Source: Tridacna crocea
Lineage: Eukaryota; Mollusca; Bivalvia; Cardiida; Cardiidae
NCBI GenBank assembly: GCA_943736015.1
Contig: OX031061.1
Span: 16,563,290 to 16,627,289, forward strand
Reading direction: 5' to 3'
DNA length: 64,000 bases
Every line of letters begins with the position of its first letter. The stretch's first letter is position 1. Made by a program: the position numbers and the translations under genes. Of the stretch, positions 19,501-22,500 are shown one piece after another. A model generated the notes under the pieces. That model was not told where the DNA came from and ran no database searches. It was given only the letters and a program-made list of their open reading frames with translations.

Positions 19501-22500
19501 AGCATACGGACATCCCTGTTCTTACGAACGAAGTCCGTAACAAAGAAACAAATGAATAAATGTATGGCAGAAATAAGGGTCGGAGCGGGATTCGAACTCC
19601 GAACTCCCGGACGCAAGGCCAATACCGTAACCACTGAGCCAAAGAGATATCTCCCTGACGCAGTAGCCAGGTATTGTATTTAAATCGGGAGTATGCCATG
19701 CAGGAAGGAGTGGTCTCCCATAACACACCCCCTCTTAAAGTCATCATTTATTGATGACTCAAAGCCTTAATAGGCAGGAAGTCCGATTTTGGACAACAAA
19801 TGGGATTAATGGCTCAATGGCCAATCCCGGACAAGCCCCCATCTTACGAACGAAGTCCGTAACAAAGAAACAAATGAATAAATGTATGGCAGAAATAAGG
19901 GTCGGAGCGGGATTCGAACTCTGAACTCCCGGACGCAAGGCCAATACCCTAACCACTGAGCCAAAGAGATATCTCCCTGACGCAGTAGCCAGGTATTGTA
20001 TTTAAATCGGGAGTATGCCATGCAGGAAGGAGTGGTCTCCCATAACACTGTTTACTTTCCTCTTGCATAATGACGTCCCTGTTTTACTTTCCTCTTGCAT
20101 AATGACGTCCCTGTTACTTTCCTCTAGCATACGGACATCCCTGTAACTTTCCTCTAGCATACGGACGTCCCTGTTTACTTTCCTCTAGCATACCGAGGTC
20201 CCTGTAACTTTCCCCTAGCATACCGACGTCCCTGTTTACTTTCCCCTAGCATACGGACGTCCCTGTTTCTTCCCTCTAGCATACGGACGTCTCTGTTTCT
20301 TTCCTCTAGCATACGGACGTCTCTGTTTCTTTTCCCTAGCATATACGAGATGTCTTTATAGATGTCTGTTTCTTCCTCTAGCATATAGACGTCTTTGTTT
20401 CTTTCCTCTAGTATATAGACGTCTTTGTTTCTTTATTCTAGCATATAGATGACTTTGTTTCTTTACTCTACCATACTGATGTCCTTGTTACTTTCTTTTA
20501 TCATGCCCAGGTCCTCATTATTTTCCTCTAGCATGCGGACGACCCTGTTTCTATCTCCTAGCATACGGACGTCCTTGTTTCTTTCCTCTATCATGCTGGC
20601 GTCCTTGTTTATTTCCTCTAGCATACAGACGTCCTTGTTTTTTTCCTCTAACATATGGACGTCCTTGTTTCTTCCCTCTAGCATATAGATATCTTTATAG
20701 ATGTCTGTTTCTTTCCTCTAGTATATAGACGTCTTTGTTTCTTTATACTAGCACTCAGACGTCCGTTTCTTCATATAGACATCTTTGTTTCTTTCCTCTA
20801 GCATAAAGACGTCTTTGTTTCTTCATTCTAGCATATAGATGTCTTTGTTACTTAGATTATCCAACACACCAGAAGCATCCAAAGCTTTTGGTAAAACAAT
20901 ACTCTTGTGAAGTTTTTTAGCACACAAGGGATGGGGGCATAATCAAGCTGGCCACACAATACAACAGAAAAGCAACTACTAGTTTCCAGCATTCTATCGT
21001 TTTTTCACAATGTTTTCAAAAACCTCTTTCTTCAGAGTCAATAATTTTCTTACCTTTGTTCCTTTCATTTTGCCATGAAGAGCAAAACAAAGCCTACTGG
21101 CTGTTTGAATATCTTTTACAGCAAGGTCAAAGGTCAGCTGTGAGAAGGATTTGTCTATGTTACAGTTGCCATTGGAGACTGTCATCTCTCGTGTTTGTTT
21201 CACATCACCAAGCACCTCACTTCCATGGTACAGCCCTACCACTAGTTTAACCTGCATCATAACAATTTAACCCATTACAACACAATCCCTAATTTTGACA
21301 ACCCTGAGGAAGAAACTTTTAGAAAACATTGTGGAAAAAGGAGAAAATGCTGGTAACCAGCATTTTCTCCTTTTCCCTCAATGTTTTCAACCATTATAAC
21401 CCTTTCCCACATAGCAGAAATTTGGACCTATCAAAATTGAAAGCATTTGCAGACAAATATGTCTTAGTGGCTGAAATGTCACATTTTTTATTTGATTGGG
21501 TAGAAAACTTTGTGGGAAAAGGAGAAAATGCTGGTTACCAGCATTTTCTCCTTTTCCCACAATGTTTTCTAAAGGCTTCTTCCTTAGGGTCGTTAAAAGT
21601 CGTCTTTGTGTGGTAAATGGTTAACTACAAATTTCAAATTTTCTGTCACTTATTTTGTCGTCTGCAAATGCTTTCGATTTGGACCAGTCTAAAACTTTTT
21701 GTTTGGTAATGAGTTAACTTTTTAACACACAATCCAGAGTTTAAGTTTACCCTGAACAAAGGTACACGTAAACACTATAGGAAAAGAAATCCATCTTTTA
21801 ACTCTTCACTTATTTGTGGTTTGCATAAGCTCCAAGTTTGGAAAAGTCTAAAAATCTTGTCATTTAGTTAAGACTTAAATATTTGAGACAGAAATACAGC
21901 TAAACTGAAAATAATGTGTTTTTTAAACTGTAGAAAACATTGTGAGAAGAAGAGAAAATGCTGGTTGCAAGCATTTACCTTTTTCCAACAATTTTATCAG
22001 AAGTCTTCTTTTCCAGAATATCTTCGTCAGGGTCGTTAACCCTTTCCCGAATAATCCCTGGTTTTCACTACCCTGAGCAAGAAGCCTTCTGAAAACATGA
22101 TTGTAAGTATAGGAGAAAATGGTGATAACCACCATGTTCTCCTTTTACAACAATGTTTTCTGCCGTCCCAAAACAAATTTCAGTTTTTAGTCACATTAGT
22201 TTTGTTGTCTGCAACTGCTTCCAATTTGCTTTGAATTTGGACTGGTCTAAAATTATGTTGTTTTGTAAAGAGTTAAAACTCTGCATTATGTTATAATGGG
22301 GTAATATTTTGCGAATACATATTTATGAAGTAATGTTAGAATTACAAAGATCAGACAGATCCCACCTTATCAATATTGTCTTTCATCTCCACTGAGGTTA
22401 TTTCAATATTTTGAATTGATTTAATTTCAAGCTGAAATCTATCCTCAATCTCCCAGATACAAACATCCCTGTGCCCTCTGGAACCCACATTTCTTTGGGC

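Follow-up and report, generated by a model that had tools for sequence, protein, structure and literature searches.

The window, that is, the whole 64-kb stretch of Tridacna crocea DNA that was analysed, contains on its minus strand a complete, gene-less LTR retrotransposon of the kind called TRIM (Table 1). Its orientation is given by four signals, the primer-binding site (PBS), the polypurine tract (PPT), the A box and the B box, all of which agree. The LTR begins with TGTTATGG and ends with CGTAAGA. The parts (206+116+206 bp) add up to a total well under 1 kb, with the PBS after the 5' LTR and the PPT before the 3' LTR, as in a typical TRIM. A previous interpretation made from the letters of the DNA alone (the sequence-only reading) had recognized the purine tract, a tRNA-Pro PBS matching at 17 of 18 positions and the absence of genes, and in all of this it was correct; no ORF of at least 120 aa is present in the element. 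The PBS was scored against a sequence that we take to be the 3' end of animal tRNA-Pro. The same reading had placed the element at 19521..20047, with two 205-bp LTRs differing at two bases and a 117-bp interior. The gene-less LTR pair is real and the two differences stand, but with a constant A added to each LTR the boundaries shift to those of Table 1, on the minus strand. Among the longer ORFs of the window, 8 of 15 were searched against Pfam and gave nothing above the cut-off.

Table 1. Features of the element and of its insertion site, in window coordinates
Feature	Position	Strand	Basis or remark
Complete TRIM (very probably Helenus)	19520..20047	-	528 bp; whole-element search matches in host genome
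5' LTR, 206 bp	19842..20047	-	ends set by 4-bp duplications in other copies
Interior, 116 bp	19726..19841	-	without ORF of at least 120 aa
3' LTR, 206 bp	19520..19725	-	2 base differences from 5' LTR
tRNA-Pro PBS, 18 nt, directly after 5' LTR	19824..19841	-	17/18 (C to T)
PPT AAGAGGGGGTG, adjoining 3' LTR	19726..19736	-	sequence
A box TGGCTCAGTGG, 5' LTR	19953..19963	-	11/11
B box AGTTCGAATCC, 5' LTR	19910..19920	-	10/11
A box, 3' LTR	19631..19641	-	box scoring
B box, 3' LTR	19588..19598	-	box scoring
Imperfect palindrome / RNA hairpin over A box, 5' LTR (LTR 50-106)	19942..19998	-	folding
Imperfect palindrome / RNA hairpin over A box, 3' LTR	19620-19676	-	folding
TATA-like TTTAAATA, LTR 42-49, 36 bp upstream of A box	19999..20006	-	putative promoter role
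Target-site duplication CTGT, left copy	19516..19519	.	comparison with other copies, empty site
Target-site duplication CTGT, right copy	20048..20051	.	comparison with other copies, empty site

The ends of the element were set by comparison with its other copies in the host genome. In 30/30 fetched copies a constant A follows ...TAAG at the end of the 3' LTR, and the duplication starts only beyond this A. The target-site duplication is thus 4 bp (CTGT) rather than the 5 bp (CTGTT) originally read, because the base counted as fifth belongs to the LTR, as its constant last base. At least 4 bp are duplicated in 65/66 complete-ended insertions (exactly 4 bp in 64, 5 bp in L025, none in L070); these 66 comprise every grouped place in L001-L080 whose two outer LTR ends are complete, of which L001-L030 were chosen as the best matches to the window copy and are therefore biased to young copies, and L031-L080 are the start of the contig-1 exact-match listing, which required an exact 21-base LTR end. 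A duplication of integrase length is usual for a TRIM, and one of 4 bp for animal Helenus elements. The window copy itself is inserted in a 30/31-bp minisatellite, and excising the element together with one CTGT restores the register of the repeat, that is, the empty site. Since removal of either 4 or 5 bp yields an identical joined sequence there, the length of the duplication was taken from the other copies. The large minisatellite array (window 13213-18007 and 18898-20853), with a 30-bp unit like TTACTTTCCTCTAGCATACGGACGTCCCTG, holds the insertion and supplies the empty-site control. In a set of 48 complete-ended insertions, the preferred target duplication is A-T-A-T/G, with A in 27 at position 1, T in 26 at position 2, A in 23 at position 3, and T in 19 or G in 17 at position 4.

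The family to which the window copy belongs is genuine, young, abundant and recently active. The last 21 bases of the LTR occur as 2,644 exact copies in the 1.05 Gb genome, compared with 0 for the reversed control, and a search with the whole element yielded 44 near-full-length matches at 95-100% identity, 40 of the 2,401 candidates having been scored. The sampled part of contig 1 (to 14.8 Mb) has 44 places: 24 with an LTR-interior-LTR structure, 10 solo LTRs, 3 tandem arrays and 7 partial or rearranged copies. Both the paired LTRs with flanking duplications and the solo LTRs, which had been proposed as a check on the sequence-only reading, are found, along with tandem arrays; the duplications are of 4 bp. 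The two LTRs of the 24 full contig-1 places have no differences in 8 cases, 1-3 in 10 and 6-12 in 4, and an indel is present in 2. Of 47 near-complete interiors (window copy included), 44 match the presumed tRNA-Pro 3' end at 18/18 positions of the PBS, and 43 carry the PPT in the form ACTTTAAGAGGGGGTG. A head-to-head junction of two overlapping LTR pieces of ~158 bp each, beside an interior and a second LTR, is present at L031:1264-1521.

Relatives at 70-85% identity are present in five fetched loci (L039, L040 with the overlapping L041, L047 and L077). Those that were aligned (L039 and L047; ~70% identity) keep most of both boxes and most of the LTR ends. In older relatives (L108, L109 and L110), the LTR ends in ...CGTAACA, with the canonical CA, directly before the same PBS, and the LTR of L106 ends in AAACA. 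The stretch fetched for L107 lies just upstream of a PBS, which itself falls outside, and it includes a purine tract and an LTR; its PBS is thus probably part of an array. Given the canonical CA at the LTR ends of the relatives, the young family has probably acquired its AAGA end secondarily. A full-length relative with gag-pol had also been proposed as something to look for. The pattern used for such a partner (a tRNA-Pro PBS preceded by A, and before that a base other than G) gave 25 sites, and the five that were read all belong to Helenus relatives, with no autonomous partner among them. The flanks at L039:1518-1603 and L040:811-878 contain strong palindromes of ~70-85 bp; their matches to microRNA models fall short of the curated cut-offs, and they are probably MITE-like repeats.

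Each LTR contains, in the sense direction, an A box matching at 11/11 positions and a B box matching at 10/11, separated by 43 bp. When the LTR was shuffled 3,000 times with dinucleotides preserved, their joint score of 21 was never reached. In the 64 kb, scanned on both strands for pairs whose A box matches at 10/11 positions or more, the two LTRs are the sole places with a score of at least 20/22. The box scores, the shuffles and the scan of the 64 kb thus bear out the split, tRNA-type promoter first noticed in the sequence. A covariance scan for a tRNA had been suggested as a further check, and here the result was different: neither ARAGORN nor Rfam calls a tRNA, even at E = 10 for the element by itself. 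These empty scans rule out a true tRNA gene and indicate that only the two promoter boxes are tRNA-like. A scan of viral contigs for the tRNA-like core gave 0 matches. The boxes do not evolve exceptionally slowly among young copies (11-nt windows at these positions rank 36/170 and 81/170), and selection on them cannot be argued from these ranks. The LTR also carries the TATA-like TTTAAATA, whose TTTAAA core is present in all four of the LTRs that were aligned. Because of this motif, the earlier statement that the element has no pol II signals becomes uncertain, and the motif may leave room for pol II. The sole AATAAA of the element is located in the interior, at element position 296, and none is present in the LTR.

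The run TTTT (T4), a stop signal for pol III, is absent from the sense strand of the 322-nt unit of LTR plus interior, even with T making up 33% of the element. Shuffles of this unit are TTTT-free in 0.7% of cases when dinucleotides are preserved and in 5.4% when mononucleotides are. AAAA occurs once in the unit, and is found in 44/47 interiors. Across the family, T4 is seen in 1/97 LTRs and 0/47 interiors (2/130 LTRs in a larger set), counts that, given the recent common origin of the copies, come close to a single observation. T4 runs do occur in the decayed relatives of L039, L047 and L077. Beyond the 3' LTR, a first TTTT is encountered after a median of 46 bases in the 65/66 insertions that have one (up to 400 bases examined). 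The absence of T4 raises the question of where the RNA of such an element ends, a question not found to be addressed in the accessible text of the published description of similar elements (PMC10886601).

A further feature of the LTR is an imperfect palindrome at LTR 50-106, which spans the A box. The surrounding 67 nt fold at -34.0 kcal/mol, and the fold of the whole LTR has a z of -3.89, with 0/200 shuffles as stable. In eight related LTRs (the window copy, L031, L039, L047 and four in L077), which come from only five loci and are in several cases decayed, 86.6% of the cells are paired versus 31.7-49.7% when the pairing is slid. These values would suit a functional palindrome: either the upstream arm of the 3' LTR would pair with the A-box strand of the RNA's 5' end, drawing the two ends together for strand transfer, or the hairpin would be a packaging or dimer signal. 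However, in the eight LTRs covariation lies within the range of shuffles (score 76/500; pairs changed on both sides 323/500), the hairpin is partly lost in L039rel, L077d and L107, and an inherited inverted duplication may account for the palindrome instead. A function is therefore possible but on balance doubtful, and since covariation does not exceed the shuffles and some relatives keep the hairpin only partly, it is best described as an inverted repeat that is conserved but whose function is unproven. The words hairpin, inverted and palindrom did not turn up in a passage search of the main text of PMC10886601.

TRIMs with tRNA-derived sequences in their LTRs have been named Helenus (Kojima 2024, PMC10886601), a name that appears only in this paper among the matches listed. 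According to that description, Helenus elements have been found in animals, in fungi and in a single plant. Bivalves contribute 51 families, from five orders of Pteriomorphia, and no other molluscan subclass is listed in the published table. The duplications of animal families are 4 bp long, and bivalve families use tRNA-Lys, His, Ile, Pro, Glu or Ser as primers, their PBS region being shared by gypsy elements. The sequence-only reading knew of no TRIM with tRNA-type LTRs in bivalves, a statement that these 51 published families overturn. The T. crocea element resembles Helenus in the tRNA-type A and B boxes of each LTR, the 4-bp duplication and the use of tRNA-Pro, and differs in its heterodont host (Cardiidae) and in the AAGA LTR end of its young family (compared with PMC10886601). 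The assignment to Helenus rests on this comparison of structure, 4-bp duplication and tRNA-Pro use with the published description. The proposed parallel with the Cassandra elements of plants is supported by the boxes, the PBS and the duplications: both are TRIMs with a pol III promoter in the LTRs. However, the promoter of Cassandra is of the 5S rRNA type, and Rfam scans of the window and the element gave no 5S rRNA match; in addition, Cassandra RNA is described as ending inside the 3' LTR, in its 5S sequence, with an 18-bp repeat (PMC10886601), whereas the T. crocea element has no internal T4 stop. Ajax, from nemerteans, is likewise an animal TRIM with a pol III-type LTR promoter, but one derived from 5S, and it has 5-bp duplications and a tRNA-Leu primer (PMC10886601). 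Another bivalve TRIM, biv-TRIM (Satovic 2019, PMC6934838), which is also found in a cardiid, Cerastoderma edule, shares terminal repeats of similar size (202-218 bp), solo repeats and tandem arrays. Its published inner domain of 77-80 bp, its mostly GGGGAGA PPT and its lack of an unambiguous PBS set it apart (PMC6934838). The conserved biv-TRIM TGATCCCAAAGGAC finds a best match of only 8/14 (sense) or 9/14 (antisense) in the T. crocea element and, together with the 116-bp interior, this rules out identity with biv-TRIM as published.

Taken with these comparisons, the locus very probably represents a recently inserted, non-autonomous Helenus-type LTR retrotransposon of T. crocea, a TRIM with a tRNA-derived LTR promoter and a putative pol III cycle. 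From the A and B boxes and the absence of TTTT we infer that pol III transcribes the element. In such a cycle, TFIIIC would bind the A and B boxes of the 5' LTR and pol III would start ~10-15 nt upstream of the A box, near LTR 70-75. It would then read through the entire TTTT-free element and stop at the first T run past the 3' LTR. Without an internal TTTT, such an RNA would end in flanking DNA and would therefore have one and the same stretch of LTR at its beginning and at its end. This stretch, running from the start site to the end of the LTR, would serve as R. A Ty3/gypsy-type partner would supply the proteins, tRNA-Pro would prime minus-strand synthesis at the PBS, the purine tract would prime plus-strand synthesis, and integrase would insert the copy with a 4-bp duplication. 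Recombination between LTRs is a likely route to the solo LTRs and to the LTR-interior-LTR-interior-LTR arrays.

The element could instead be an ordinary pol II TRIM, which starts from the TATA-like box of the LTR and in which the tRNA-like boxes are left over from a SINE inserted in an ancestral LTR. Compatible with this are the location of TTTAAATA, ~30 bp ahead of where transcription could plausibly start, its maintained TTTAAA core, the ordinary conservation of the boxes among young copies and the lack of a complete tRNA fold. Against it stand the two nearly perfect boxes at a 43-bp spacing, which are largely kept in relatives of ~70% identity, the TTTT-free sense strand and an LTR without AATAAA; this explanation is judged unlikely. 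The case named beforehand as fatal to the TRIM interpretation, in which a pair of separate SINE insertions or a tandem SINE merely mimics a TRIM, draws on the tRNA-like promoter in each unit and on the single LTRs, which account for 10/37 complete contig-1 places. However, the other 27/37 are LTR-interior-LTR structures or arrays, the interiors that were read carry PBS and PPT, and the duplications lie at fixed TG...AAGA ends, single LTRs included. A SINE2 or SINE pair is excluded by these fixed 4-bp duplications and the LTR structure, leaving this explanation with practically no credence. A more elaborate form of the Helenus interpretation can also be drawn up, in which this heterodont Helenus has done away with an internal pol III terminator. 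Here the T4-free sense strand would allow read-through of both promoters with a stop in the flank, the LTR would consist of U3 and a long R, and the conserved A-box hairpin would pair the arm in the 3' LTR with the 5' end of the RNA, coupling promoter to strand transfer. As a whole, this scheme is speculative and rather improbable.

Relative to the published Helenus elements, the new aspects of the T. crocea family are its heterodont host, its TTTT-free sense strand, its long A-box hairpin and its relatives with canonical CA LTR ends. Helenus is here confirmed independently in a chromosome-scale genome, as a large young family (8/24 full contig-1 places with identical LTR pairs), and its host range is extended beyond Pteriomorphia; the bivalve-TRIM and Tridacna-retrotransposon literature, among the matches listed, has no report of a heterodont Helenus. 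The contigs of the genome reach down to C18, of 40 Mb, and C19 has 57 kb. A repeat survey of T. crocea lists satellites and clusters of Ty3-gypsy and of unclassified LTR elements, with no mention of TRIMs in the passages searched (PMC9140397). Since the young copies have kept their signals intact, they would allow a direct test of whether pol III transcribes an animal LTR element. Tridacna is a cardiid, within Heteroconchia, and the bivalve host guessed in the sequence-only reading is borne out. In a globin tree (support 95/92) the host falls beside a group of Mactra, Mya, Mercenaria and Ruditapes, apart from the single scallop named in it; for one piece of a host globin, the PDB yielded distant globins only. 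The mitochondrial contig C31 (L093), the last one, of 29,009 bp, has ND5 and ND2 adjacent, and its ND5 is 99% identical to that of Tridacna crocea and 94% to that of T. squamosa.
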